A stretch of DNA of 42,904 nucleotides, taken from assembly GCF_030692605.1 (NCBI RefSeq), contig NZ_JAUYUD010000072.1:1-42904 (forward strand), written 5' to 3'. This DNA comes from Lutibacter sp. (GTDB lineage Bacteria > Bacteroidota > Bacteroidia > Flavobacteriales > Flavobacteriaceae). Each line of letters opens with the position of its first letter. Within the stretch, counting starts at the first letter, position 1. Positions 127 through 29,387 of this stretch are shown here, piece after piece. The translations under genes were made by a program, and so were the position numbers. The notes beneath the pieces were generated by a model. The model was not told where the DNA came from and ran no database searches. It saw only the letters and a list, made by a program, of their open reading frames with translations.

Positions 127-840
127 TTATTGAGTACAGGTTTTTAAAATTTTTGGAAGAAATACGTGGGTATTAAAATGTATGTATTTTTGAAGTTGAT
201 GATCTAATTCATGCAATTTTTGATATAAAAATCGATAGGAATTGCAAGCGCCCTCTGGAACTAAATAATGGGACGATAAATTTGAAATTTCTTTAAAAGT
301 ATCGCTCACCAATTGGTGAGCAATTTCACTCTTTTTTACGGTCCTTTTCACAATTTCTATTTGATTCTCTGAAATGTCAGCTGAAATATTATCTAAAGTC
401 AATATTTTTTCAATAGTAGGAAATAATGTGTTATTCGAATTTTTAAGCATTTCAAGTACAACAATTTCAATTCCTTTTATTAATACATTAATTTCGATAA
501 CTTCCGGATTTTCCAATCCATGTACTTCGGCAACTTTAGCCGAAATTGGTGTAATTTGAGAAACATTTTCATCCAAATAATTATGATATTCTTCTTTAAC
601 TTTTTCAATCAAAGAACTAATATCCATATCTTTTAAATTGTATTCTCCTCCTATTTTTATATTAATAGTTTCAATTTCTTGCATTAGCATTTCAAAATCA
701 ACTTTATTTTCTTTGCATGCAGCTTCTAAGGTCATATTCCCACCACAACAGAAATCAATTTTATACTTGCTAAATACGTGATCTGACCCTAACTTATTTG
801 ATACAATTTCTGCAATTGTATTCTCTTTGGTAATATTCAT
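127..840 (-). CDS. ric: RIC/ScdA/YtfE-like iron-sulfur cluster repair protein with reduced metal-ligand set
   Basis: This 237-aa protein matches the RIC family (YtfE/ScdA/NorA), di-iron proteins that help restore iron centres damaged by NO or oxidative stress. The N-terminal ScdA_N domain (about 1-60) carries the diagnostic FCCGG motif with C31 and C32. The rest is a helical hemerythrin-like domain. By eye, the histidines at H86, H107, H175 and H221 correspond to conserved ones. The helix that usually has HxxxE before LFP (here about 130-141) has neither His nor Glu at those positions, and the last helix lacks the Glu after H221, so the di-iron site may be incomplete or altered. It is the last gene of the nor operon, 11 bp after norD, which fits a role in nitrosative stress. 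The family call is firm; metal content and activity are uncertain. Confidence 0.85.
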   Translation of the reverse strand: MNITKENTIAEIVSNKLGSDHVFSKYKIDFCCGGNMTLEAACKENKVDFEMLMQEIETINIKIGGEYNLKDMDISSLIEKVKEEYHNYLDENVSQITPISAKVAEVHGLENPEVIEINVLIKGIEIVVLEMLKNSNNTLFPTIEKILTLDNISADISENQIEIVKRTVKKSEIAHQLVSDTFKEISNLSSHYLVPEGACNSYRFLYQKLHELDHQLQKYIHFNTHVFLPKILKTCTQ

Positions 841-851
841 AATTTTAAATT

Positions 852-2621
852 TTATGATTGGTGTTTAATTTTTTCATACAATTGAACCATCGATTTTAAT
901 AATTCAACTGGTGTTGTTAATATTTGATAATGGTTTTGTCCAAACATTTGAGGTAAATAGTATTTTGCTTGTGCCTCAATTGCTAAGGCATATGAATTTA
1001 TTTGACGTTCATTTAGCTCTCTAAGAGCTTGTTTAACATCATTTACACCGTATTTTCCCTCATATTTATCGTAGTCATTTGGTTTTCCATCGGATAATAA
1101 AATAACCCATTTATTTTTAGTGTTTCGCTTGTTTAACATAGCTCCAGAATGGCGTAAAGCAGCGCCAATTCTAGTATAACCGTTCGGTTCAATGGCACCT
1201 ACTTTAAATTTAGCTTTATTCCAATCTTCGTCAAAATCTTTAATGGTGATATACGAAGAATGATTTCTGGTTTTTGAATAAAAACAATCGATAGAAAAAT
1301 CAATATTAAATTCATTTAAAATTTCACCAAACAAAATAGAGACTTGCTTTTCAACATCAATTACTCTGTTTCCAGCAGCGTAACCATCAGTAGATAAACT
1401 AATATCTAACAACAATAAAATAGACAAATCCTTTTCTTTTTTCCTTTTTGAAATGTATATATTTTCAGAAGGTGTATGCCCGGAATGTACATCAACAAAT
1501 AAATCGGTTATCGCATCAATATCGAACTCCTCCCCCTGTGGTTGCCTTCTTTGTTGTTGGTACTTATTATTTACAGTAGTCAACATTTTACGCAAGCCCA
1601 TTAATGTTGAAGCATTTTCCTTCAAGGTTTTTTTAAAATATGCAACATCAGTTTTTAATAAGGATTTCGGATAAACTTTACAAAAATCTTGTTTATATAG
1701 GCGTTTTGTATAATCCCATTCATCGTATTTAAGATAAAATCCTTTACTATCAATTTCTGCACTTTCAGAAACTGTAGTATTTTCAATAAAATCGGCTTGA
1801 TATACAGAATGTGCTGTATCATCAACACGAACCGTATATTTCATGTTAATTTCTTCCAACGCATTTGAATGGTCATCTAATTCATCATCACCATCAAAAT
1901 CTCTAAAATTTCCTCCAAATTCTTCAGCAGTTTCTACTTTTTCAAATTGATGTTGTAACACTGCATCTTCTTGTTGTTTTACATCAATCTGAACCGAAAT
2001 TATTTCTTCTACAGCTTTTGATTTTAAAATGGTTTTTGGTTTTTCTTCGTCAGCTTTTTTTACTTTATCAGTAAAATTATTCAGGCTATTTTCTAAATCT
2101 TCCTCTGGGTTATTTCGCATCCATTTTCCATAAATAAATGAAAAATCAGCCAATGATTCGTCTTTCACTTTTGAAGAGTAAAAAGTTTTAAAATTGGTAT
2201 AATATTTTTCTGTAATTGGAAACTGTTCAAATAACGAATCCAATATTTCTTTTGAGGTTTCTTCTGCTTTTTGTTGCGATTCTAGTAATTCATGTTCTTG
2301 GTTGTCGTTCCAATTCAAATTCAAATTTTTTTGAACTGACAAATACAATACTCGGAATAAATAGTACGCTATATTTTCATCGGACGAAGGAAAATCAGTG
2401 AATTTTACAGGTAAAAAGAAATTATTGTTTTTGAAACCACCTTCTCGCTCAGCTTCATATATTTCGATAGACTCACCGGTAATTGCACGTGCTAAAATGG
2501 TTAAACGAGGTTTCAAGTCCTCCAAACTTACAGCATACTCCAAAGCTTCTTCCTTCTTTAATCGTCTTCGTTTAAAGTAGTAAGCTAGTTTAGTAAATAG
2601 ATATTCATCTGGTTCGAACAT
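852..2621 (-). CDS. norD: NorD-type von Willebrand factor A protein for nitric oxide reductase activation
   Basis: This 589-aa protein has a long charged N-terminal part and a C-terminal vWA domain (about 400-589) with a clear MIDAS metal site: DISLS at 406-410, a later Thr in GYTRIG, and an Asp in LLSDGKPND. That layout is typical of NorD. NorD works with the MoxR-type ATPase NorQ to activate cytochrome-c-dependent NO reductase, probably by helping insert the non-haem iron. It lies between norQ and ric on the same strand, with ric starting 11 bp downstream. The middle (about 180-260) is rich in Asp, Glu and Lys and probably flexible. The 88-bp gap before it holds a short 7-bp tandem repeat. 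The assignment rests on the MIDAS motif together with the norCBQ context. Confidence 0.9.
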   Translation of the reverse strand: MFEPDEYLFTKLAYYFKRRRLKKEEALEYAVSLEDLKPRLTILARAITGESIEIYEAEREGGFKNNNFFLPVKFTDFPSSDENIAYYLFRVLYLSVQKNLNLNWNDNQEHELLESQQKAEETSKEILDSLFEQFPITEKYYTNFKTFYSSKVKDESLADFSFIYGKWMRNNPEEDLENSLNNFTDKVKKADEEKPKTILKSKAVEEIISVQIDVKQQEDAVLQHQFEKVETAEEFGGNFRDFDGDDELDDHSNALEEINMKYTVRVDDTAHSVYQADFIENTTVSESAEIDSKGFYLKYDEWDYTKRLYKQDFCKVYPKSLLKTDVAYFKKTLKENASTLMGLRKMLTTVNNKYQQQRRQPQGEEFDIDAITDLFVDVHSGHTPSENIYISKRKKEKDLSILLLLDISLSTDGYAAGNRVIDVEKQVSILFGEILNEFNIDFSIDCFYSKTRNHSSYITIKDFDEDWNKAKFKVGAIEPNGYTRIGAALRHSGAMLNKRNTKNKWVILLSDGKPNDYDKYEGKYGVNDVKQALRELNERQINSYALAIEAQAKYYLPQMFGQNHYQILTTPVELLKSMVQLYEKIKHQS

Positions 2622-2709: not shown

Positions 2710-3489
2710 TTAAATCATTAGGTTACACAAATCTTTTAAGGCTTCAACAATCTCTAAATCATCTGTTAATGGTTCTACAATTGCAACTTCAACAGATAAT
2801 CGTTTTGCTAAACCACTATGAATTAATTTTGCTGCATCTACTAATAATCGGGTTGAAACTGTTTCTGTTAATCCGAGCTCAGTTAAGTTTCTAATTTTTG
2901 TTGCGATGTTTACTAATTTTTTAGCAATACCGTCTTCAATTCCAGTTTCATTTACTAAAATTTCAGTTTCAATTTTAGCTTCTGGATAAGCAAAAGAGGT
3001 TGCAATAAAACGTTGTCGAGTTGAGGGTTTTAATTCTTTAAATCCCTTTTGGTACCCTGGATTAAATGAAGCAACCAACATAAAATCGGCATGTGCTTTT
3101 ACAGTTTCTCCTAACTTATCAATAAACAATTCTCGCCGGTGATCTGTAAGCGAATGAATTGCCACAATTACGTCGGGTCTAGCTTCAGCAATTTCATCTA
3201 AATAAATAATAGCACCTGTTTTAAGAGCAACGGTTAATGGTCCATCCATCCAAATAGTTTCAGCTCCTTTAATGATAAACCTACCTATCAAATCAGTCGA
3301 AGATGTTTCTTCATGACAACTAATAGTAATTAACTTTTTATCTAATTTATGCGCCATAAACTCAATAAATCTAGATTTTCCCGTACCAGTAGGTCCTTTT
3401 AATAAAAATGGAATTTTATTTTTATAGGCATGTTCAAATACTTCAACTTCTTTACCAATTTGATGATAATAAGGTAATGGGTTTTTCAT
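2710..3489 (-). CDS. norQ: NorQ, MoxR-class AAA+ ATPase
   Basis: This 259-aa AAA+ protein has Walker A GPTGTGKS at 32-39 and Walker B ending IIYLDE at 94-99, followed by the sensor region VASFNPGYQKG and an arginine-rich STRQRF segment. This matches the CbbQ/NirQ/NorQ branch of the MoxR family. NorQ acts with NorD as a chaperone-like complex that activates the NorCB reductase in the membrane. The gene lies between norB (140 bp upstream, with a hairpin in the gap) and norD (88 bp downstream). The length is normal for NorQ. CbbQ is excluded by context, since no RuBisCO gene is present. The start chosen is the ATG at 3487-3489, giving the usual short lead before the AAA+ core. Confidence 0.92.
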   Translation of the reverse strand: MKNPLPYYHQIGKEVEVFEHAYKNKIPFLLKGPTGTGKSRFIEFMAHKLDKKLITISCHEETSSTDLIGRFIIKGAETIWMDGPLTVALKTGAIIYLDEIAEARPDVIVAIHSLTDHRRELFIDKLGETVKAHADFMLVASFNPGYQKGFKELKPSTRQRFIATSFAYPEAKIETEILVNETGIEDGIAKKLVNIATKIRNLTELGLTETVSTRLLVDAAKLIHSGLAKRLSVEVAIVEPLTDDLEIVEALKDLCNLMI

Positions 3490-3629: not shown

Positions 3630-4967
3630 TTAATCATTAATTCCTAATGCTTCATCTGTTGGTTTACCGTGTTTATAAAAATCGACAATATAAAGTGCAA
3701 TTCCTGTTGTAAAAACCAAAGCACATAATACTAGAACCACAAAATGGATACTAATTTCATTTTGAACTGCCATAAAATCCATTTTAAATTTACGCTCTAG
3801 ATAAACTTGGGCAACACCTGCTACTCCAAATGCAACAGTCATACCAACCATTCCAACATTTGACAACCAAAAAGCTGCTCGACCTATTGAACTATCATAC
3901 ATTTTTCTACCTGTCATGTTTGGTAAACTATAACTTATAATTGCCAAAACAATCATTCCGTATGCTCCCCAAAATGCTAAATGTCCGTGCATTGCAGTTA
4001 CTAAAGTTCCGTGGGTATAAATATTTGTTTGCGGTAATGTATGAGCAAATCCTAATAAACCTGCACCTACAAATGATACAATTGCAGCTCCTAAAGTCCA
4101 ATAAAGTGCCAATTTGTTTGGGTGTTTTTTCTCCCCTTTTCTGTACATATTTACTGCAAATAATGCCATTGCTAAAAATGCTAAAGGCTCTAAAGCTGAG
4201 AAGATTCCTCCAACTATAATCCAAATTTTATTTACTCCAATGTAATAATAGTGATGACCCGTTCCTAAAACTCCTGATAAGAAGGTTAAACCAACAATTA
4301 CATATAACCATTTTTCAATAACTTCTCTATCAACTCCAGTTAATTTAATTAATAAGAACGATAAAATACCACCCATAATTAATTCCCAAACACCTTCAAC
4401 CCATAAATGAACAACCCACCAACGGAAAAATGAATCTGTAACTTGACTGTCGAATTGCAACATTCCTGGCAAGTATAATAATGCCGCAAACAAAAGTCCC
4501 ATGGAAAGTACTAAAGCCGTAGTTGTTTGGCGCTTTCCTTTAAAAAGAGTTACTAAAATTAATCCTAGAAATAATAATACGTTAGCAACAACTAAATAAT
4601 CTAAAGGACGTGGAATTTCTAAAAATTTACGACCTTCCCAAATATTAAAATGAAATCCAACAATTGCTGCAACACCAACAAGTGCCAAACTAATTAATTG
4701 AACATATGCCAATTTAACACTTACTAATTCTTTTTGTGCTTCTTCTGGTATTATATAGTAAGCTGCACCCATAAAACCAGACAACAACCATACTACTAAT
4801 AAGTTTGTATGAACCGCTCTTGCAGTGTTAAAAGGTATAAATTCATGTAAATTGTCGAAACCTATTCGGGCAAAACCCATTACAAATCCATAAACAATTT
4901 GTAAAACTAATAGCAGCATTGAAAGTGCAAAAAACCAATAAGCTACTTTTTGTGATTTATATTTCAT
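3630..4967 (-). CDS. norB: Nitric oxide reductase catalytic subunit NorB (cNOR type)
   Basis: This 445-aa polytopic membrane protein of the haem-copper oxidase superfamily has the features of cytochrome-c-dependent NO reductase. H53 (in AVHTN) and H329 (in HGHLAFWGAY) fit the low-spin haem b ligands, and H327 fits the haem b3 ligand. H187 (in VVHLWVEG) with E191, and H238/H239 (in GTGHHYYYIG), fit the non-haem FeB site. E195 and E260 match conserved acidic residues. It reduces 2 NO to N2O using electrons from NorC. There is no N-terminal quinol-oxidase-type extension, so this is not qNor. It follows norC after an unusual 100-bp gap containing a duplicated copy of its own start region. The ATG at 4965-4967 is supported by the matching MKYKSQKVAYWFF start and normal length. 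Confidence 0.97.
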   Translation of the reverse strand: MKYKSQKVAYWFFALSMLLLVLQIVYGFVMGFARIGFDNLHEFIPFNTARAVHTNLLVVWLLSGFMGAAYYIIPEEAQKELVSVKLAYVQLISLALVGVAAIVGFHFNIWEGRKFLEIPRPLDYLVVANVLLFLGLILVTLFKGKRQTTTALVLSMGLLFAALLYLPGMLQFDSQVTDSFFRWWVVHLWVEGVWELIMGGILSFLLIKLTGVDREVIEKWLYVIVGLTFLSGVLGTGHHYYYIGVNKIWIIVGGIFSALEPLAFLAMALFAVNMYRKGEKKHPNKLALYWTLGAAIVSFVGAGLLGFAHTLPQTNIYTHGTLVTAMHGHLAFWGAYGMIVLAIISYSLPNMTGRKMYDSSIGRAAFWLSNVGMVGMTVAFGVAGVAQVYLERKFKMDFMAVQNEISIHFVVLVLCALVFTTGIALYIVDFYKHGKPTDEALGIND

Positions 4968-5078
4968 AATGTTATTTTTTATTTGTTTTTATTGGTCATT
5001 ATCAATAGCTTACAATCATTTTTGTCTTAATGAAAATTTGTTTTTAGCTATTTCATAATGTTATTTTTTATTTGTTTT
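4960..5078. repeat. 30-bp perfect direct repeat duplicating the norC-norB junction
   Basis: Positions 4960-4989 and 5049-5078 are identical over 30 bp, with an 89-bp period and 59 bp of unique sequence between. One copy contains the norB start codon and its upstream bases. The other contains the norC stop codon, followed by the same upstream bases and a decoy ATG that reads Met-Lys-stop (5048-5056). Removing one period would leave norB starting 11 nt after the norC stop, which looks like the ancestral junction. Confidence 0.85.
4992..5005 (-). promoter_or_regulatory. Fnr-box-like dyad upstream of norB (weak)
   Basis: On the minus strand this reads TTGATAATGACCAA, matching the Fnr/Crp-type consensus TTGAT-N4-ATCAA at 9 of 10 defined positions. 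It lies in the 59-bp unique insert between norC and norB, about 25-38 bp before the norB ATG. No -7 box sits at the spacing seen for norC and ccsBA, so activation from here is doubtful. It may be chance or a remnant. Confidence 0.3.
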
Positions 5079-5529
5079 GTTTATCTTTTGCTAATGGTGA
5101 AACAACTCTATCAAATCCATTTAAATCAATCTTTCCAATCCATTTAAAAAATTCAACAACATCAGCTGCTTCTTGCTCCGACATATTATATGCTACCATT
5201 TTTCTTCCATTTGGCTGCCAAGGGCCTTCTGACATTAAAATACTTTTGATGACATCTTCACCATTGCCATCATATTTAATGTTTAATCGATCAACAACTT
5301 TTGTTAATTCTGGCGCGTAATAGGCACCTTCTCCCAATATTGTATGACATCCCATACAATTGTTAGACTCCCAAATAGCCTTCCCTCGGATGGCAGATTC
5401 TGTAAGATCTTTGTGATTTGTTTGATCTACTCCTTCTGATAAAGAATACACTGTGAGCCCTATAAAAATAAGAAAGGTTACTAATGTCCCACCCAGAAAG
5501 AAAGCTCGTGCTTGTTTTTTAGATAACAT
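5068..5529 (-). CDS. norC: Nitric oxide reductase cytochrome c subunit NorC
   Basis: This 153-aa protein has one N-terminal membrane anchor (about 10-30) and then a periplasmic class I cytochrome c domain with the haem-binding motif CMGCH at 58-62. The segment GEGAYYAPEL right after it is typical of NorC. A conserved Met in the NGRKMVAYNM region is a candidate axial ligand. NorC passes electrons to NorB. It is the first gene of the norC-norB-norQ-norD-ric unit and has its own promoter region upstream. Covalent haem attachment would require a cytochrome c maturation system; the CcsBA protein encoded at 7906-11043 can supply this. Confidence 0.96.
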   Translation of the reverse strand: MLSKKQARAFFLGGTLVTFLIFIGLTVYSLSEGVDQTNHKDLTESAIRGKAIWESNNCMGCHTILGEGAYYAPELTKVVDRLNIKYDGNGEDVIKSILMSEGPWQPNGRKMVAYNMSEQEAADVVEFFKWIGKIDLNGFDRVVSPLAKDKQNK

Positions 5530-5596
5530 ATTTTGAAAATTTATTGGTTAATTAATTTCATTAATAATAAAAGACCTTTTTATCTTTTATTATATG

Positions 5597-5639
5597 CAAA
5601 GATAATAATACTCAAATAATATTTTACTGATAAATATCA
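5597..5639 (-). promoter_or_regulatory. norC promoter with Crp/Fnr-type operator
   Basis: On the minus strand a -7 element TATCTTTG lies at 5597-5604. The perfect dyad TGATATTTATCA (arms TGATA/TATCA, matching TGAT-N4-ATCA) lies at 5628-5639. The centres are exactly 33 bp apart, which puts the dyad near -40 relative to the start expected for a Bacteroidota promoter, the position of class II Crp/Fnr activators. No TTG -33 element is evident, as expected for an activator-dependent promoter. The leader to the norC ATG is about 60 nt. Confidence 0.6.
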
Positions 5640-5666
5640 TTGTGAAGAAAAAAAAATGATTAATTG

Positions 5667-6113
5667 TTAAGATTCAAGGGATTTTAATGTTAATACCTGC
5701 TTTTTTTCATCAACTTCTTTAGCGAATTCAAGAATACTTTTGTCTCTAAATTTACCTAAAATGCTATTTTTAAACGGTTCAACAATAAAATGAACTGGGC
5801 AAGGATTTAACCCATCACATTCTGACAAACCTAAAAAACATTCATTCAATCTATTTAATCCATCAATATTTTCAATAATATCACAAACAGTTTTATCGCC
5901 ATTCTTTTTTGTTAAAAAAAAACCGCCCGTTGGACCTTTTGTTGAAGAAATAATTTTACCCCGAACCAACTGTTGAAATAATTTTGCCAAAAATGGGCTT
6001 GGAACCTCCAATGTTGATGCTATATCTTTTACACTTAATTTTTTGTCCTTACTAGAATTAGTTGCTAAATACAGTGTTGCTAAAATTGCATATTTACTGG
6101 CACGTGATAACAT
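5667..6113 (-). CDS. Rrf2-family Fe-S transcriptional regulator (NsrR/IscR-like)
   Basis: This 148-aa protein starts MLSRASKYAILATLYLA, the standard Rrf2 opening, followed by a winged helix (VKDIASTLEVPSPFLAKLFQQL) and the wing STKGPTGGFFL. A cysteine set C92, C99 and C105 (spacing CX6CX5C) fits Fe-S cluster binding, as in NsrR and IscR. NsrR senses NO and represses NO-detoxification genes. The position directly upstream of norC and downstream of tnaA makes an NsrR-like role likely, but sequence alone does not separate NsrR from other cluster-sensing Rrf2 proteins. The gene has its own promoter, with a tandem repeat that overlaps its start codon and suggests autoregulation. Confidence 0.85.
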   Translation of the reverse strand: MLSRASKYAILATLYLATNSSKDKKLSVKDIASTLEVPSPFLAKLFQQLVRGKIISSTKGPTGGFFLTKKNGDKTVCDIIENIDGLNRLNECFLGLSECDGLNPCPVHFIVEPFKNSILGKFRDKSILEFAKEVDEKKQVLTLKSLES

Positions 6114-6149
6114 TATTTATACATAAATTAAATTATTTATACAAAAATA
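6112..6149 (-). promoter_or_regulatory. Promoter and putative operator of the Rrf2 regulator gene
   Basis: On the minus strand a -7 box TATTTTTG lies at 6142-6149. Between it and the start codon (6111-6113) there is a 12-bp perfect direct repeat, ATTATTTATACA on the plus strand, at 6112-6123 and 6132-6143, with a 20-bp period (two helical turns). The same DNA contains the dyad ATAAATTAAATTATTTAT at 6123-6140. A protein bound here would cover the transcription start, so negative autoregulation is plausible. AT-richness raises the risk of chance matches. Confidence 0.5.
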
Positions 6150-6170
6150 TCAAAAAAAGACCAATAAGTA

Positions 6171-7547
6171 TTATATTTTTTCAAATTTAACAGTAAAATG
6201 CCTCATTATTGGAGCTTCATCCACAATTTTATAGCCCGATTTAGCATCTTCCCTAGTATCAAAAATATTTTTTAAGGTTGCTGCAATATAATCCATATGG
6301 TTATTTGTGTATGTTCTTCTTGGAATTGCCAATCTAACTAATTCTAATTCAGGAAATCTATTTTTTCTAGTAAATGGATCTCTATCAGCTAAAACAGTAC
6401 CAATTTCGACCCCTCTTATTCCTCCTACAACATACAATTCCAAAGCTAAAGCCTGAGCTCTATATTCTTCCCTTGGTATAGTCGGTACGAATTTATTTGC
6501 GTCTAAATAGATGGCATGCCCTCCAAAAGGTTGTTGTACAGGAACTCCATAATCAACCAATTTTTGACCTAAATAGGCAACTTGCTCAACCCTACTTTCC
6601 AAATAATCAAATTCTGTAGACTCGTTTAACCCCACTGCTAAAGCTCCCATGTCTCTTCCATTCATCCCTCCATAGGTAATAAAACCTTCATACATTATAT
6701 TAAATACAGTCGCATGCTTAAAAACATCTTCATTGTTAAGTGCTATAAAACCACCCATATTTACTAATCCATCCTTTTTAGCACTCATAGTCATTCCATC
6801 ACCATACGAAAAAACCTCTTTAACAATTTCCTTAATGGTTTTATGTGCATATCCTACCTCTCTCTTCTTAATAAAATAGGCGTTTTCAGAAAAACGAGCT
6901 GCATCAAAGTACAATGGAATTCCGTAGTTTTTACACAATTGAGAAACCTCTTTAGTGTTTTGGACAGAAACAGGTTGTCCCCCAGCACTATTGCAAGTAA
7001 TGGTTAAAATAACCAAAGGAATTTTTTCTTTCGGATATTTTTTAAAAACATTTTCAAGTTTTTCAAGATCAATATTTCCTTTAAATGGATGTATAACCGA
7101 AGTGTCAAAAGCCTCATCAATGGTACAATCAACAGCAGTTGCTTTTCTAAATTCAATATGCCCTTTGGTTGTATCAAAATGTGAATTTCCTGGCACTACA
7201 TCACCTTCTTTAATTAATGCAGAAAAAAGAACATTCTCTGCTGCTCGACCTTGATGGGTTGGAAGAAAATATTTAAATCCTGTAATTTTTTTAACTGTTT
7301 TTCTAAGTTTTAAAAATGATGATGACCCAGCATAACTTTCATCACCAATCATCATTTCTGCCCATTGTTGGTCACTCATTGCACCAGTTCCAGAATCCGT
7401 TAATAAATCAATATAAACTTTGTTTGATGCTAAATTAAATAAGTTATAATTTGCTTTTTTTATCCATTTTAAACGATCCTCTTTGGTGGATCTATTAATT
7501 GATTCAACCATTTTAATTTTATATGGTTCAGCGTATGGTAATTCCAT
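6171..7547 (-). CDS. tnaA: Tryptophanase (tryptophan indole-lyase)
   Basis: This 458-aa PLP enzyme of the beta-eliminating lyase family converts L-tryptophan to indole, pyruvate and ammonia. The PLP lysine lies in MSAKKDGLVNMGG. The close alternative is tyrosine phenol-lyase, and discriminating residues favour tryptophanase. The C-terminal motif is MRHFT (His as in TnaA, not Phe as in tyrosine phenol-lyase), the segment GIRGVEIG matches TnaA GIRAVEIG where the lyase has an Arg, and NSAGGQPVS has the TnaA-type NS. Length is normal. The gene is 57 bp upstream of the Rrf2 gene on the same strand. I found no TnaC-like leader peptide with a Trp codon upstream. Indole production by this cell is an inference. 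Confidence 0.95.
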   Translation of the reverse strand: MELPYAEPYKIKMVESINRSTKEDRLKWIKKANYNLFNLASNKVYIDLLTDSGTGAMSDQQWAEMMIGDESYAGSSSFLKLRKTVKKITGFKYFLPTHQGRAAENVLFSALIKEGDVVPGNSHFDTTKGHIEFRKATAVDCTIDEAFDTSVIHPFKGNIDLEKLENVFKKYPKEKIPLVILTITCNSAGGQPVSVQNTKEVSQLCKNYGIPLYFDAARFSENAYFIKKREVGYAHKTIKEIVKEVFSYGDGMTMSAKKDGLVNMGGFIALNNEDVFKHATVFNIMYEGFITYGGMNGRDMGALAVGLNESTEFDYLESRVEQVAYLGQKLVDYGVPVQQPFGGHAIYLDANKFVPTIPREEYRAQALALELYVVGGIRGVEIGTVLADRDPFTRKNRFPELELVRLAIPRRTYTNNHMDYIAATLKNIFDTREDAKSGYKIVDEAPIMRHFTVKFEKI

Positions 7548-7703
7548 AAAATAATATTTAGTACGTTAAATAAATTGTGTAAAATCTTTTTGAAATTGAT
7601 AGATAATCTACTTAATAAAGCATTCAGGTCGCTTTATATAAAGTGAAATCTTAAAATATTCTTTAAACCTATTTAGATTATTCAATTCTTAGCTATTTGA
7701 CTA

Positions 7704-7711
7704 CAAAAATA
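7704..7711 (-). promoter_or_regulatory. Candidate -7 box of tnaA
   Basis: TATTTTTG on the minus strand fits the Bacteroidota -7 consensus TAnnTTTG and would give a leader of about 150 nt before tnaA. No TTG is seen at the usual -33 distance. The leader contains a short palindrome, CTTTATATAAAG at 7632-7643, and no open reading frame with tryptophan codons. Confidence 0.4.
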
Positions 7712-7763
7712 CATTTTTTTTAAAATAAACATTAAAAACACCCTCTATTTTATCATTTTATTA

Positions 7764-7806
7764 TGACAATAATCATAGTGTGTAATAAAAGTTACTTTTA
7801 TCTTTG
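7764..7806 (+). promoter_or_regulatory. ccsBA promoter with Crp/Fnr-type operator
   Basis: A -7 box TATCTTTG lies at 7799-7806, identical to the norC box. The dyad TGACAATAATCA at 7764-7775 (TGAY-N4-ATCA, with outer arms TATGA/TCATA perfect) is centred exactly 33 bp upstream of it, the same spacing as at norC. No TTG -33 element is visible. A second TAnnTTTG match, TATTTTTG, lies nearer the gene at 7868-7875 and could be an alternative promoter. This 358-bp divergent region holds no gene. Confidence 0.5.
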
Positions 7807-7905
7807 TCAATAAATTCAACAAAATTGAATCATTATTTTTAGGTGTGATAATTAAGTCAATTATACCTATTTTTGCATTTCATTTTAATTTTAAACTTAT
7901 TTTAG

Positions 7906-10900
7906 ATGAACAAATTTTTTTCGCTTATTTATTCAACAAGAGTAACGGCTGTCTTATTTTTAGTTTTTGCAACTTCAATGGGTGTTGCAACTTTTATTGA
8001 AAATGATTATGGAACTGAAACCGCAAAAGTTTTGGTTTATAATGCATGGTGGTTTGAAGCAATTATGGTGGTTTTTGCTATTAATTTTTTTGGAAATATT
8101 TTTAAATATAAATTATATAGAAAGGAAAAGCTTGTTGTTCTAGCATTTCATTTAGCCTTTTTATTCATAATAATTGGAGCCGGGATTACACGTTACATTA
8201 GTTTCGAAGGTATTATGCCAATTCAAGAAGGTGCTGTTAGCGACACTTTTTTAACAGAAAAAAGCTTTATCAGTATTGTTGTAAACGATGGAAAAGAACA
8301 AAAAACACCTTTTCATAAAGAAATTTTATTAAGCGCTCTTGGGTCTAATAATTACCAATATAAAACAGATTTTAAAGGAACTGACGTATCTGTAAAATTA
8401 AAAAGTTATATACCAAATGTTCAAGAAATTTTCGAACTAGATTCGGTAACTCCAGCGTCTCCAGACAGTAAGGATTTTTTACTTATTGTAGAATCAAGTG
8501 GTGGTGGAAGACACAATCACTATATTCAAAAAGGAAGTTCAGATGACGTACATGGGGTTTTGGTTGGGTTTGATTCTCCAAATATCAATGCAATAGACTT
8601 TAAGACATCTAATGGTAAAATAACCATTAAATCTCAAATTGAAGGAAACTTTTACAGAATGGCTGATAATTTTGAAGGAATTATTGCAAAAGATTCTGTT
8701 CAAGATTTTTCTTTGTTAGCGGTACATTCAATTGCTGGCATTCAGTTTGTAGTGCCTCAAGGACCTGTAAAAGGAAGCTATAAAACCATTTCAGGAAATA
8801 AAGACGAATCGTCTTTATCTCAATTAGTTTTTGATGTAGTTGTTGGTGACCAAACTAAAGAAATAAAATTATATGGCGAAAAATTTGCAATGCAAGCTCC
8901 TACTGAATTTACAGTTGGAAACCTTAATTTTAGAATGAGTTATGGTGCTATGCAAATGCAATTACCTTTTAGCATTAAATTAAACGATTTTATTTTAGAT
9001 AAATATCCAGGATCTGAAAGCGCTATGTCCTATGCAAGTGAAGTAACCGTTATTGCTCCCGATGAAACATTTGATTTTAGAATTTTTATGAATAATATTT
9101 TAAACTATAAAGGTTACAAATTCTTTCAATCTAGTTATAACATTACAGATGAATATGAAGAAACACACTTGTCTGTAAATCACGATTACTGGGGAACTTT
9201 AATAACTTATATCGGTTACTTTATGTTGTATGCAGGTCTTATTTTAATTCTTTTTATGAAAAATACGCGTTTCGACTTTTTGAGAAAATCATTACGAAAA
9301 AATAAATCTATAAAAAAAGGTGTAACTGTTATAGCATTATTATTTATTTCTTCATTGAGCTTTGCTCAAGACCACAGTCATGCAATTACAAAAGCAGAAA
9401 TAGACTCGGTACTAATCGCCAATAAAATTGATGAAATTCATACTGAAAAATTTGCTAAATTAATAATTCAAGATGATGGAGGAAGGATGAAGCCAATTCA
9501 TACTTATGCATCTGAATTACTAAGAAAAGTTAGTAAAAATGATTCTTTTGAAGATATGAATGCTACTCAAGTGTTTTTATCTATTCAACAAAATCCAAGA
9601 ATATGGTTTCAAATTCCTATCATTTATATTGAAAAAGGAAATAGTAAATTAAGAGATATTATTGGCATTTCTCAAGATGCTAAATATGCAGCTTTATCAA
9701 ATTTCTTTAGCGATGAAGGAATTTACAAATTAGCTGAAATTCAGCAAGAGGCTCAAAAAAGCAACATTAAAAGTAAGTATGAAAAAGATATTATTAATGT
9801 TGATAGAAGAGTGAACTTGTTGTATTCTGCAATAGTTGGTGATATTTTAAGAATTTTTCCTATTCCAAATGATATAAATAATAAATGGGTTTCTCATAAT
9901 AATATAGAAAATGCTCATTTTAAAGGTGAAGATTCTCTATTTGTAAAACAAATATTGCCAATTTATTTACAAACCTTGTATGATTCTAAAACATCTAAAA
10001 ATTATGACGATTCTAATGAAATTTTAGGAGGTATCGTAAATTTTCAAAAAAAATATGGTAGTGCTGTTTATCCAAAAGATCATAAAATTGATTTAGAAAT
10101 TGCCTACAATAAATACGATGTATTTAGAAAACTATTTAGTTACTACATGTACATAGGAACACTGATGTTTCTATTTGTTATTATTCAAATTTTTAAAGAC
10201 AATAAGTTAATCAACTACCTGATAAAAGGAAGCATTGCAATAATTATTGTTTTATTCTTATTGCACACAGGAGGTTTAATTGCTCGTTGGATTGTTAGTG
10301 GCCACGCTCCTTGGAGTAACGCTTATGAGTCTATGATTTATGTTGGATGGGCTACCATGTTATTCGGTTTAATTTTTGGAAGAAAGTCTTCTATGACTAT
10401 TGCCGCAACTGCATTTTTAACTTCATTTATTTTAATGGTGGCACATTGGAACTGGATGGATCCAGAAATTGCAAGTTTAGTTCCTGTATTAAATTCGTAC
10501 TGGTTAATGATTCACGTTTCCATTATTGTGGCAAGTTATGGACCTTTTGCCCTTGCAATGATTTTAGGTTTAATTTCCTTATTCTTAATGGCATTAACCA
10601 CTAAATCTAACAAAGCAAAAGTATCAAGCCTTATTAAAGAATTAACAATAATTAACGAAATGGCTATAACTGTTGGTTTAGTTTTACTTGTTATTGGAAA
10701 TTTTTTAGGTGGCCAATGGGCTAATGAAAGTTGGGGTCGTTATTGGGGTTGGGATCCAAAAGAAACTTGGGCATTAATTAGTATTATGATTTATGCATTT
10801 GTACTTCATATGCGTTTAGTGCCAGGATTAAGAAGCAGATTTACATTTAATTTATTCTCGATAGCGGCATTTGCATCCATTTTAATGACATACTTTGGTG

Positions 10901-11043
10901 TTAATTTTTACCTTTCAGGCTTACACTCTTATGCAAGTGGAGATAAGGTAATTACACCTACATTTATATTTTATGCAATTGGTTTTGTAGCCGTATTATC
11001 GGTGTTTGCTTTTATTAAATTCAAAAAATATTATCAAAAATAA
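7906..11043 (+). CDS. ccsBA: CcsBA-type fused cytochrome c biogenesis protein (ResB-CcsA)
   Basis: This 1045-aa fusion belongs to cytochrome c maturation system II, which exports haem and attaches it to CxxCH motifs outside the cytoplasmic membrane. The N-terminal ResB/Ccs1-like half has TM helices near 9-27, 38-58 and 68-88, a large periplasmic domain, and another TM near 430-450. A hydrophobic stretch ending SSLSFAQ (about 470-486) starts a second periplasmic region (about 490-735). The C-terminal CcsA half is polytopic and has the haem-handling WWD motif (WGRYWGWDPKETW, about 945-957) with conserved His residues nearby. This long fused form is usual in Bacteroidota. It is divergent from tnaA and its promoter resembles that of norC, consistent with supplying haem attachment for NorC among others. 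Confidence 0.93.
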   Translation: MNKFFSLIYSTRVTAVLFLVFATSMGVATFIENDYGTETAKVLVYNAWWFEAIMVVFAINFFGNIFKYKLYRKEKLVVLAFHLAFLFIIIGAGITRYISFEGIMPIQEGAVSDTFLTEKSFISIVVNDGKEQKTPFHKEILLSALGSNNYQYKTDFKGTDVSVKLKSYIPNVQEIFELDSVTPASPDSKDFLLIVESSGGGRHNHYIQKGSSDDVHGVLVGFDSPNINAIDFKTSNGKITIKSQIEGNFYRMADNFEGIIAKDSVQDFSLLAVHSIAGIQFVVPQGPVKGSYKTISGNKDESSLSQLVFDVVVGDQTKEIKLYGEKFAMQAPTEFTVGNLNFRMSYGAMQMQLPFSIKLNDFILDKYPGSESAMSYASEVTVIAPDETFDFRIFMNNILNYKGYKFFQSSYNITDEYEETHLSVNHDYWGTLITYIGYFMLYAGLILILFMKNTRFDFLRKSLRKNKSIKKGVTVIALLFISSLSFAQDHSHAITKAEIDSVLIANKIDEIHTEKFAKLIIQDDGGRMKPIHTYASELLRKVSKNDSFEDMNATQVFLSIQQNPRIWFQIPIIYIEKGNSKLRDIIGISQDAKYAALSNFFSDEGIYKLAEIQQEAQKSNIKSKYEKDIINVDRRVNLLYSAIVGDILRIFPIPNDINNKWVSHNNIENAHFKGEDSLFVKQILPIYLQTLYDSKTSKNYDDSNEILGGIVNFQKKYGSAVYPKDHKIDLEIAYNKYDVFRKLFSYYMYIGTLMFLFVIIQIFKDNKLINYLIKGSIAIIIVLFLLHTGGLIARWIVSGHAPWSNAYESMIYVGWATMLFGLIFGRKSSMTIAATAFLTSFILMVAHWNWMDPEIASLVPVLNSYWLMIHVSIIVASYGPFALAMILGLISLFLMALTTKSNKAKVSSLIKELTIINEMAITVGLVLLVIGNFLGGQWANESWGRYWGWDPKETWALISIMIYAFVLHMRLVPGLRSRFTFNLFSIAAFASILMTYFGVNFYLSGLHSYASGDKVITPTFIFYAIGFVAVLSVFAFIKFKKYYQK

Positions 11044-26396: not shown

Positions 26397-29387
26397 ATGC
26401 AAAATAAAGGACTTATAAAACTTTTTGCCATCCTGTTTGGATTAGTGAGTTTATATCAATTATCATTCACTTGGTTTACGTCTGGTGTAGAGGAAAAAGC
26501 AAAAATATATGCCGAAGCGAGGTCAAATGACGGTAGAGAAATTGCACAATTAGAAAGAGCATATTTAGACTCTATTGCTAACAAACCTGTTATAGATTTA
26601 GGTTTCACTAGTTTTAATTATTCTGAAATTAAAAGTAAGGAACTAAACTTAGGATTAGACCTTAAAGGAGGAATCAATGCTATTTTACAAGTTTCTGTTA
26701 GAGATATTTTGATAAAATTAGCAAACGACTCTAAAAACCCTACTTTTAATGAAGCATTAGCAAAAGCTACTGAACGTTCTAAAAGTAGTGATGATACTTA
26801 TTTGAATTTATTTTTCGAAGAATTTGAAAAACTAAGTAAAGGAAAAATAAAATTAAGCGACCCAAGTATTTTTGGAAATAAGGCTTTACGTGAAAAAATT
26901 AATTTTCAATTAACAAATGCACAAGTAAAGCCAATTATTGAAGAAGAAATTTCTGGTTCAATTAGTACTGCTTTTGAAGTATTAAGAAGTCGTATTGATA
27001 AATTTGGTGTTACACAACCTAACATTCAACGTATTGGTAACTCTGGTCGTATTTTAATTGAATTACCTGGAGCTAAGGATATTGACCGTGTTAAAAATTT
27101 ATTACAAAGCACTGCTGAATTACAGTTTTGGGAAGTTTATTCAAACCAAGAAACTGCCAATTTCTTTTTTGCAGCAAACACTGTTGTTGAAAATTATTTA
27201 AAAGCAACTGGATCGAAAGAAACGACTGCAAAATCAGATAATATAGATGATTTATTAGGTAAAGTTTCAGATTCAGTAACTCCAAAACAAGTTAAAAATT
27301 TATTTTCAGTTTTAACTCCTAGTGTACCACAAAATGAAAACATGGTGTCTTCTATTATTGGAACTGCTAAAGTTTCTGATACTGCTAAGGTAAATGAATA
27401 CTTGAGAATGACTGAAGTTAGACATGAGTTATCTGCTGAAATGAAATTTGCCAAATTTTTATGGGACGCAAAAACTTTTAGTGCAACTTTAACTGAAACA
27501 CAGGAAGAAGTGGCAATGATTAATCTATATGGTATAAAATCTAATAGAGAAGATGTTGCTCCAATTGAAGGTGACGTAATTGATGATTCAAGTCAAGAAT
27601 TTGGACAAACTGGAAAACCTGAGGTTAGTATGACAATGAATGCTTCTGGAACAAGATTATGGGCAAAAATGACTACTGAAAATGTAGGTAAATTTGTTGC
27701 CGTTGTTTTAGATGATTATGTTTATACAGCACCTTCTGTAAATACATCAATTACCAATGGTAGAACTTCTATTTCAGGAGGAAGCATGACCGTTGCTGAA
27801 GCTCAAGATATTGCAAACGTTTTAAAAGCAGGTAAATTACCTGCGGCGGCTCACATTATTCAATCTGAAGTTGTTGGGCCATCGTTAGGTCAACAAGCAA
27901 TAGATGCTAGTATAAAATCTTTTGCATTGGCATTATTAATTGTGTTTATATGGATGGCATTTTATTATGGAAAAGCTGGTGGTATAGCAGATATTGCTTT
28001 AATTGTTAACCTACTTTTCATTTTTGGAATTCTAACTTCGTTTGGAGCCGTACTTACTCTGCCAGGTATTGCAGGTATTATATTAACCATTGGTATGGCC
28101 GTGGATGCAAACGTAATTATATACGAACGTATTAAGGAAGAATTAAAAGGAGGCAAAGGATTAAAACAATCTATTGTTTATGGTTTTAGTTATGACGGTG
28201 CATTTTCTGCAATATTAGATGCAAACGTTACTTCACTTCTTACCGGTATTATTTTATATGTATTTGGAACTGGACCTGTAAAAGGATTTGCTTATACTTT
28301 TATTATAGGTATTATAACTTCTTTATTTACAGCAATATTTATTACAAGGTTATTAATTGATTGGTACGCTGGAAAAGGAAAACTTTTCACATTTGATACC
28401 AGTATTACTAAAAATTGGTTTAACAATTTTAAAATTGATTTCTTAAAACTTAGAAAAATAGCATACGTATTTTCAACTGTAATAATTATTATCAGTATCG
28501 TTTCATTATTTACTAATAAATTAAATTATGGGGTAGATTTTGTAGGTGGTAGATCATACGTTGTTAAGTTTGATAAAGCTATGAACGCTACTGACGTTTC
28601 AGTTTCTTTAAAAGATGTTTTTGGTGATATGCCAGAAGTTAAAACTTATGGAGAAGTTAGTCAGTTAAAAATTACAACTAAATATAAGATTGAAGAAGAA
28701 GGAAATCATATTGATGATGAGGTTCAGGGATTATTATTTAAAGGGTTAAAATCGTACATACCAAGTGGTGTAACCTTTGAAGAATTTAAACCTGGTTATG
28801 GTGGAGATAGACCTGCTGGTATTATGAGTTCTATGAAAGTTGAACCAACTATTGCAGATGATATTAAAACTGCTGCAGGATGGGCCGTTTTAGGTTCCTT
28901 ATTTGTAATTTTCTTATATATATTATTACGATTCAAAAAATGGCAATATAGTTTTGGTGCTGTTGTTTCATTATTTCATGATGTTTTGGTTGTGTTTGGA
29001 GTGTTCTCATTATTTTATAAGGTTTTACCATTCGATATGGAAATTGGACAGACTTTTATTGCGGCAATTTTAACTGTTTTGGGTTATTCCATAAATGATA
29101 CCGTAATTGTATTTGATAGAATTCGTGAATTCTCAAAAACACATAGTACTTGGCCTTTTGCAAAAGTCATCAATACAGGTTTAAATAGCACTATGGGTAG
29201 AACTATAAATACATCGTTAACTACTTTATTAGTGTTAGTTGCTATTTTCTTATTTGGTGGAGATTCTATTAAAGGATTTATGTTTGCATTAATTGTAGGT
29301 ATTGGTGTAGGAACATACTCATCTTGGTTTATTGCATCACCAATTTTATATGACACCGTTAAAAAATTTGACAAAAAGACCAAATAA
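26397..29387 (+). CDS. secDF: SecD-SecF fused protein translocase subunit
   Basis: This 996-aa fusion drives late steps of Sec-dependent export using the proton gradient. The SecD half (1 to about 680) has an N-terminal TM helix, LGLDLKGGINAILQV (SecD motif D1), a large periplasmic domain, and a TM block with GIAGIILTIGMAVDANVIIYERI. The SecF half (about 690-996) has LNYGVDFVGGRSYVVKF and GYSINDTVIVFDRIRE. Twelve TM helices are expected. Fused SecDF is standard in Flavobacteriaceae. It has a good promoter 5' and a perfect terminator 3', so it is a single-gene unit. Confidence 0.97.
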   Translation: MQNKGLIKLFAILFGLVSLYQLSFTWFTSGVEEKAKIYAEARSNDGREIAQLERAYLDSIANKPVIDLGFTSFNYSEIKSKELNLGLDLKGGINAILQVSVRDILIKLANDSKNPTFNEALAKATERSKSSDDTYLNLFFEEFEKLSKGKIKLSDPSIFGNKALREKINFQLTNAQVKPIIEEEISGSISTAFEVLRSRIDKFGVTQPNIQRIGNSGRILIELPGAKDIDRVKNLLQSTAELQFWEVYSNQETANFFFAANTVVENYLKATGSKETTAKSDNIDDLLGKVSDSVTPKQVKNLFSVLTPSVPQNENMVSSIIGTAKVSDTAKVNEYLRMTEVRHELSAEMKFAKFLWDAKTFSATLTETQEEVAMINLYGIKSNREDVAPIEGDVIDDSSQEFGQTGKPEVSMTMNASGTRLWAKMTTENVGKFVAVVLDDYVYTAPSVNTSITNGRTSISGGSMTVAEAQDIANVLKAGKLPAAAHIIQSEVVGPSLGQQAIDASIKSFALALLIVFIWMAFYYGKAGGIADIALIVNLLFIFGILTSFGAVLTLPGIAGIILTIGMAVDANVIIYERIKEELKGGKGLKQSIVYGFSYDGAFSAILDANVTSLLTGIILYVFGTGPVKGFAYTFIIGIITSLFTAIFITRLLIDWYAGKGKLFTFDTSITKNWFNNFKIDFLKLRKIAYVFSTVIIIISIVSLFTNKLNYGVDFVGGRSYVVKFDKAMNATDVSVSLKDVFGDMPEVKTYGEVSQLKITTKYKIEEEGNHIDDEVQGLLFKGLKSYIPSGVTFEEFKPGYGGDRPAGIMSSMKVEPTIADDIKTAAGWAVLGSLFVIFLYILLRFKKWQYSFGAVVSLFHDVLVVFGVFSLFYKVLPFDMEIGQTFIAAILTVLGYSINDTVIVFDRIREFSKTHSTWPFAKVINTGLNSTMGRTINTSLTTLLVLVAIFLFGGDSIKGFMFALIVGIGVGTYSSWFIASPILYDTVKKFDKKTK

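Follow-up and report, generated by a model that had tools for sequence, protein, structure and literature searches.

In a stretch of 42,904 nucleotides of DNA from Lutibacter sp. (contig NZ_JAUYUD010000072.1; the whole stretch is referred to below as the window), the genes norC, for the cytochrome c subunit of nitric oxide (NO) reductase, and ccsBA, for a fused ResB/CcsA cytochrome c synthetase, were found to have promoters of the same design, with a Crp/Fnr-type dyad at a fixed distance from a -7 box. We consider it likely that the two genes are members of a low-oxygen (FNR-type) regulon of the Flavobacteriaceae, with promoters of class II and an FNR orthologue as the main candidate reader of the dyad. 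Across the family, the dyad switch would probably turn genes on when oxygen runs low. The features that we computed are the sequence pattern and its enrichment, spacing, conservation and co-occurrence with regulators; from these we infer binding, activation, repression, the sensing of oxygen or NO, and the identity of the acting regulator.

Promoter architecture of norC and ccsBA

The norC dyad, TGATATTTATCA, lies on the minus strand at positions 5628..5639 and is followed by the -7 box TATCTTTG (5597..5604, minus strand), which places the predicted transcription start at approximately 5592. In the distal promoter of ccsBA (P1), the dyad TGACAATAATCA (7764..7775, plus strand) precedes an identical box, TATCTTTG (7799..7806, plus strand), with a predicted start at approximately 7811. 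The distance from dyad centre to box centre is 33.0 bp at both genes. The dyads, the identical boxes on opposite strands and their spacing had been claimed in a sequence-only reading of this DNA, and all of them were reproduced. For CRP and FNR, class II sites are centred at -41.5. According to the excerpt of PMC9723704 used here, the sigma-A -7 box of Flavobacterium psychrophilum (TAnnTTTG) sits at -12 to -5; its centre therefore falls at -8.5, and the dyad centre at a predicted -41.5 in both promoters, with starts predicted from the sequence. The assignment of the predicted geometry to the class II Crp/Fnr type, also proposed in the earlier reading, is well supported at the level of sequence.

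The string TAnnTTTG occurs 86 times over both strands of the window (46 on the plus strand and 40 on the minus strand), whereas TGAY-N4-[AG]TCA occurs at three places only: 5628, 7764 and 27584-27595. No further box in the window therefore has a dyad 33 bp ahead of it. The earlier observation that other boxes have no dyad at this offset holds in this window-wide form; the tnaA, rrf2, guaA, gyrB and lysS boxes that it named were not located singly. Two pairs of dyad and box at 33 bp were observed, compared with a mean of 0.007 in first-order Markov copies of the window, 2 of 300 of which contained at least one.

Distribution in the genome

We scanned the 3.12-Mb assembly from which the window derives (126 contigs), with the pattern read backwards as control. 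The exact arrangement was found at 12 sites, compared with none in the control, so that the whole-genome scan proposed in the earlier reading shows strong enrichment, often at respiratory genes. When the gap was varied from N10 to N36, 12 matches were obtained at N23, 4 at N22, 3 at N24 and 6 over the other 24 gaps (25 in total over 27 gaps); the control gave 7 over all gaps. Matches thus peak sharply at N22-N24, as a class II regulon with fixed spacing should show. A forward open reading frame (ORF) begins within 330 bp of the box at all 12 exact sites, and the base before TGA at these sites is A in nine and T in one.

Of the 19 sites at N22-N24, ten lie before genes for respiration, ferredoxin-linked functions or iron uptake, namely norC, ccsBA, ccoN (COX1), a ccoI-type cation-ATPase gene (assigned from a match to its metal-binding domain only), nuoA, nqrA, a Fer4/NrfD fusion, two POR_N oxidoreductases, one of which has a ferredoxin gene first, and feoA-feoB. 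Other targets are PEPCK, an AlaDh/PNT protein, a glyoxalase-fold protein, a carboxyl transferase, an OmpP1/FadL porin, a TonB-C protein and a sulfate permease, and the remaining ones are a Crp-type gene and a protein that matched no Pfam family at 1e-8. The pairing of norC with ccsBA proposed earlier stands in that both carry the architecture; the idea that they form a private pair was rejected, because as many as 19 promoters of this kind occur in the genome.

Distribution in the family and phylum

A family sample of 199 genomes, drawn evenly with nearly one per genus (198 genera), gave 889 exact matches, compared with 19 for the reversed control. At least one match was present in 175 of these genomes, and a control match in 18. 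In a second draw of 296 genomes from the phylum, the pattern was present in 30/30 genomes of the family (188 matches), 5/6 of the same order (15 matches), 27/37 of the same class (55 matches) and 40/223 of the others (102 genomes in all), with 1, 0, 1 and 6 control matches, respectively. One genome outside the class (G494, family f46) had 20 matches and no control match, far above other genomes in that part of the draw.

Among 30 family sites that were fetched, 27 have an ORF of at least 80 amino acids within 400 bp, the others being L045, L054 and L059. Eighteen of the 27 ORFs were searched against a family library, and 14 of them matched a family: five are hemN by a curated model, and nine correspond to MlaE, phosphate acetyltransferase (397 bits, below the cut-off of 418, for an ORF truncated by the locus end), a member of a thioredoxin family, Usp, pyruvate formate-lyase, a pyridine nucleotide oxidoreductase, cytochrome c, COX1 and citrate synthase. 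No family match was obtained at the cut-off used for the other four of the 18 (L035, L043, L057 and L060). In the portion of PMC9723704 consulted, oxygen limitation is described as raising the cbb3 oxidase and enzymes of haem synthesis in F. psychrophilum, which agrees with ccoN and hemN as targets.

Conservation at norC and a second palindrome

A norC gene was present in 26 genomes of the family sample. We scored 25 of them (L144 was left unscored) and found the dyad in 18 and the exact box at 33 bp in seven; L130, one of the loci counted as lacking the dyad, was probably scored on the opposite strand. In a set of 80 norC loci of named genomes, 23 of them labelled Lutibacter, taken as the genus of the window, the dyad lies within 220 bp of the norC start in 71, compared with 1.2 expected from shuffles. 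The exact box follows at 33 bp in 35 of the 80, at 32 bp in 8 and at 34 bp in 1.

The norC promoter of the window contains a second palindrome, AAAGATAAAAAGGTCTTT (5570..5587, minus strand), just downstream of the predicted start at approximately +14, and we regard it as a candidate operator of the Rrf2/NsrR type. In the degenerate form ~WTAAAAGAY-N6-RTCTTTTAW, which was written after the norC sequences had been inspected, it is found in 69 of the 80 loci, compared with 1.5 expected, and its centre most often lies 54 bp after that of the dyad. The own genome contains one exact copy, and a wider regulon there was rejected given that three matches with up to two mismatches were obtained, compared with eight in the reversed control. 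In five genomes of genus g111 (L292-L297), perhaps Flavobacterium, the palindrome stands between dyad and -7 box, at nirK-like genes of G430, G396, G508 and G446, at norC of G426 and at a porin-like gene of G508. These were fetched on sight of the palindrome and are examples, not a count; the gene in G430 (L292) is a copper nitrite reductase by a curated model, and the other three nirK-like genes and the porin-like gene (L296) were named by eye. Because the palindrome lies upstream of the -7 box in such relatives, the possibility that it acts only as an RNA element was rejected. In our reading it is an element of the DNA in denitrification promoters, and it is the better candidate for NO-specific control than the shared dyad.

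The first candidate reader of this palindrome is the Rrf2-family protein encoded beside norC (5667..6113, minus strand; Pfam), given that 35 of the 80 loci have an Rrf2 gene no more than 3.1 kb from norC, 34 of them within 1.3 kb. Its translation contains three clustered cysteines, ECFLGLSECDGLNPC, in the spacing C-x6-C-x5-C, as in NsrR. The protein scored 27.5 bits against the NCBIfam NsrR model, for which the cut-off is 182, and it passes only that of the Rrf2 superfamily (84.3 compared with 73.3). Many of the norC loci (L212-L291) preserve the order tnaA, rrf2, norC, with tnaA found in 30/80 and rrf2 in 35/80.

Two promoters of ccsBA in the genus

A ccsBA relative was present in 199/199 genomes of the family sample. 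Among the 30 best-matching loci, which were scored, weak cases outside the genus were seen at L174, where the dyad stands 34 bp from the box, and at L173, where there is a dyad without a box; L161 was probably read on the wrong strand in this scoring. In the genus, 37 genomes gave a match and 30 promoters (L184-L211 among them) were compared. A dyad was found within 260 bp in 30/30 of these, with the exact box 31-35 bp on in 21/30. A dyad approximately 55 bp before the start was found in 28/30, with an exact box 11 bp on in 15 and an imperfect one in 13. These two positions suggest that ccsBA has two promoters in the genus, with a single regulator activating P1 and repressing P2. In the window, a possible proximal P2 -7 box, TATTTTTG (7868..7875, plus strand), was recognized from the sequence and the genus comparison, and a decayed copy of the dyad against it (7855..7866, plus strand) from comparison with the genus relatives, so that the species of the window appears to retain P1 and the P2 box and to have lost the P2 dyad.

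Within the genus, dyad control of ccsBA therefore seems real, though of recent origin or readily lost. The dyad of norC is widespread in the family, and its control looks older than that of ccsBA. The proposal that one dyad governs both NO reductase and the haem-attachment machinery is accordingly narrowed: the norC dyad is widespread in the family, and the ccsBA dyad is a feature of the genus that is hardly found outside it.

Candidate regulators

The own genome encodes nine PF13545 proteins, in line with the expectation that Crp/Fnr genes would be present. Positions 180 and 181 of CRP track half-site bases, as set out in the part of PMC1274295 that we drew on. The helices of four of the nine proteins were judged to fit a TGAY half-site: an FNR-like protein, two fusions of a response regulator with a CRP domain (L002 and L003), and a protein encoded beside a moaA-like gene. 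Two others (L005 and L006) were set aside as readers because of helix residues R180 and V181, and two more (L007 and L009) because their helices, with R180 and E181, are CRP-like.

The FNR orthologue is encoded near the cbb3 genes (G000:C106:6041-6727; L001). Its recognition helix is TATESAIR, in which T180, E181 and R185 fit the CRP/FNR specificity rule in the same part of PMC1274295, and it shows the TGA-type combination of E181 and R185 without R180. The sequence TATES.IR was present in all five orthologues printed, which had been preselected with an [EQ]..IR filter, so that this conservation is not an independent test. In the 30 best of 169 matched genomes, Cys 4, 7, 53 and 106 were present in 30/30 orthologues and Cys59 in 28/30. 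Known FNR proteins have four ligands (equivalents 20, 23, 29 and 122), three of which are matched in the alignment by Cys 4, 7 and 106; Cys 4, 7, 53 and 106 could hold an oxygen-labile Fe-S cluster. A dyad is found in the promoter of the orthologue itself in 28 of the same 30, with an exact box 19-21 bp on in 11/30, an arrangement from which repression would be expected; the dyad in its own promoter suggests that the FNR orthologue controls itself. The fnr-like gene L001 is divergent from the ccoI-type ATPase gene, and the one dyad that they share has a box 32 bp off on the ATPase side and 20 bp off on the fnr side.

In the 199 family genomes we called FNR at E ≤ 1e-50 and the response-regulator/CRP fusion at E ≤ 1e-30; no more than 14-15 candidates were scored in each genome at first, so that some orthologues may be missed. 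A close FNR was found in 131 genomes and a fusion in 99. Genomes with both regulators (n = 62) averaged 7.08 pattern matches, those with FNR only (n = 69) 3.75, those with the fusion only (n = 37) 4.57 and those with neither (n = 31) 0.71, and each regulator-bearing group differed from the last (p ≤ 1.3e-9, one-sided Mann-Whitney test with genomes treated as independent). Genomes without any match numbered 0, 6, 1 and 17, respectively. Given this co-occurrence, both FNR and the fusion probably read the dyad, and the recognition helices of the two fusions in the own genome are similar to that of its FNR orthologue. The earlier suggestion that one regulator switches on norC and ccsBA is upheld as far as the common Crp/Fnr-type dyad goes, with FNR and fusions both tied to that dyad as candidate readers.

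Alternative explanations

Several results tell against a low-oxygen regulon read mainly by the FNR orthologue. At norC, 7/25 upstream regions of the family sample are without the dyad and only 7/25 have the exact box at 33 bp; 9/80 of the named relatives are without the dyad and 35/80 without an exact box at 32-34 bp, the shuffles behind the expected count were mononucleotide, and the relatives are not independent. At ccsBA, among the 30 best-matching loci of the 199 genomes, the exact arrangement was found only in two genus members. One of the 30 fetched family sites, L045, sits within a long ORF. In the own genome, the dyad before the Crp-type gene (L011, G000:C41:6504-6546) also forms the stem of a hairpin resembling a terminator, and its presence may be accidental. 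Regulator and pattern also part company in places: 6/131 genomes with a close FNR and 1/37 with the fusion only have no match, and 14/31 with neither still have 1-4 matches, an unexplained remainder. In the FNR orthologue, asparagine stands in place of the C29 ligand of known FNR proteins, so that the set of four cysteines is incomplete, and the protein scored 96 bits against the FNR model NF008365 of NCBIfam, below the cut-off of 228, although this was still its best-scoring model.

The closest competitor, to which we give perhaps one chance in four, is that norC and ccsBA are read mainly by the response-regulator/CRP fusion, as a two-component version of FNR, and not by the cysteine-bearing FNR. 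Genomes with a fusion and no close FNR average 4.57 matches, and in at least seven genomes (G024, G033, G109, G114, G138, G157 and G181) the exact dyad and box follow the matched part of the fusion gene by 9-46 bp on the same strand. The gene after this site is Usp in G114, and in the own genome the fusion gene L002 is trailed by a dyad without an exact box, ahead of a Usp-like gene. The norC dyad is also kept in both FNR-minus genomes that have norC. The regulators in the norC genomes, however, point the other way. In the 24 genomes scored (two were left unscored), the dyad occurs with both regulators in seven, with FNR and no detected fusion in nine and with the fusion only in two, and the six without it are all FNR-bearing; the fusion is also found in fewer genomes of the sample (99, compared with 131 for close FNR). 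FNR seems the more economical reader of norC. It is quite improbable, in our estimation, that the dyad is read by an NO-sensing regulator of the DNR/NnrR type instead of an oxygen sensor, with NO as the shared signal. Regulators of the HcpR1 type, which control nitrogen-oxide genes, do use a related dyad, TTGACnnnnGTCAA (PMC1274295, as excerpted), and norC is itself a target, but the named targets are mainly respiratory, redox or low-oxygen genes (cbb3, feoAB, nuo, nqr, hemN and pyruvate formate-lyase) and not NO genes, and the separate palindrome at norC and nirK makes a better NO element. That the two promoters resemble each other by chance, given a short motif and a window with a G+C content of 31%, can be rejected almost entirely in the face of the window, genome, spacing and family counts (0.007 pairs expected per window, 12 matches compared with 0, 889 compared with 19, and 71/80 norC dyads compared with 1.2 expected).

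Proposed mechanism

Under the preferred reading, a low-oxygen regulon with the FNR orthologue as its main candidate reader, a Crp/Fnr-family dimer would bind TGAY-N4-RTCA centred at -41.5 and contact RNA polymerase at the TAnnTTTG -7 box, standing in for the missing upstream contact as in class II activation. The FNR orthologue encoded near the cbb3 genes, whose cysteines could hold an oxygen-labile Fe-S cluster, would do so and would control its own gene, and the response-regulator/CRP fusions, with their similar helices, are likely to share the dyad. At norC, the second palindrome near +14, perhaps read by the neighbouring Rrf2 protein, could add an NO-specific gate. At ccsBA, P1 would be activated from -41.5 and P2 repressed by a dyad that abuts its box, amounting to a promoter swap. 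The fullest version of this scheme is a family-wide regulon in which FNR with rearranged cysteines (C4, C7, C53 and C106) and the response-regulator/CRP fusion recognize one and the same dyad, fixed rigidly at -41.5, an Rrf2 palindrome is overlaid at norC and nirK, and ccsBA in the genus swaps a dyad-repressed for a dyad-activated promoter. We offer it tentatively, its chance of being right in every part falling slightly below even.

Genes of the two loci

The gene names agree with Pfam for norC, norB, norQ, norD, ccsBA and Rrf2. On the minus strand, norC (5068..5529; PF00034) is accompanied by norB, for the COX1-family subunit (3630..4967), norQ, for a CbbQ/NirQ/NorQ ATPase (2710..3489), and a norD-like gene for a von Willebrand domain protein (852..2621), after which comes a gene for a ScdA_N (RIC-like) protein (127..840), all assigned by Pfam. 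The ccsBA gene occupies 7906..11043 on the plus strand (PF05140 and PF01578).

Comparison with known systems

Oxygen control of genes seems little described in the Bacteroidota, whose core promoter is unlike that of E. coli, and among the matches listed in our searches of open-access papers we found no description of an FNR regulon in Flavobacteriaceae. The present results provide a testable map, comprising a site with its position and likely targets, two candidates for its reader, and a further operator at genes of denitrification.

Class II FNR/CRP promoters of Escherichia coli resemble those predicted here in having a dyad of the TTGAT-N4-ATCAA kind at -41.5 and no -35 contact. Their targets include cytochrome oxidase, hemN, pyruvate formate-lyase and feo, and all of these kinds recur in the dyad set. 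The core promoter here differs in being the Bacteroidota TAnnTTTG box, and the half-site is mostly ATGAY and not TTGAT. The results also suggest that promoters with a TAnnTTTG box can be activated in class II fashion from -41.5. The [4Fe-4S] FNR proteins (E. coli; PDB entries 9qlt, 5cvr and 5e44, the last of which we take to be Aliivibrio fischeri FNR) belong to the same family as the orthologue by sequence, and the N-terminal CxxC and the Cys122 equivalent align, both with an E. coli sequence and in a second alignment with 9qlt. The orthologue departs from them in the asparagine at the third N-terminal cysteine (C29) and in the barrel cysteine, Cys53, invariant in 30/30 orthologues, which suggests that FNR can carry its Fe-S ligands in a rearranged set.

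In the same phylum, HcpR of Bacteroides and Porphyromonas is presented, in the excerpt of PMC1274295 used (see also PMC12750200), as a Crp/Fnr-family regulator of nitrogen-oxide stress genes. The excerpt gives HcpR motifs other than the dyad found here, HcpR proteins without the FNR cysteines, and for HcpR2 the motif GTAACnnnnGTTAC with a predicted regulon of hcp only in most Bacteroides. PgRsp of Porphyromonas was set aside as a counterpart, being described as haem-binding and nearest to CooA in the passages of PMC6955866 at hand, and a Crp/Fnr homologue of Flavobacteriales is assigned to MalR by similarity in those of PMC8510549.

The Rrf2 protein and its candidate operator resemble the NsrR system, which belongs to the Rrf2 family, in that a protein with three clustered cysteines is encoded beside nor genes and a palindrome lies over the promoter region. 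The palindrome here, ~AAGAY-N6-RTCTT, spans 16 bp and is shorter than the NsrR box of 23 bp.

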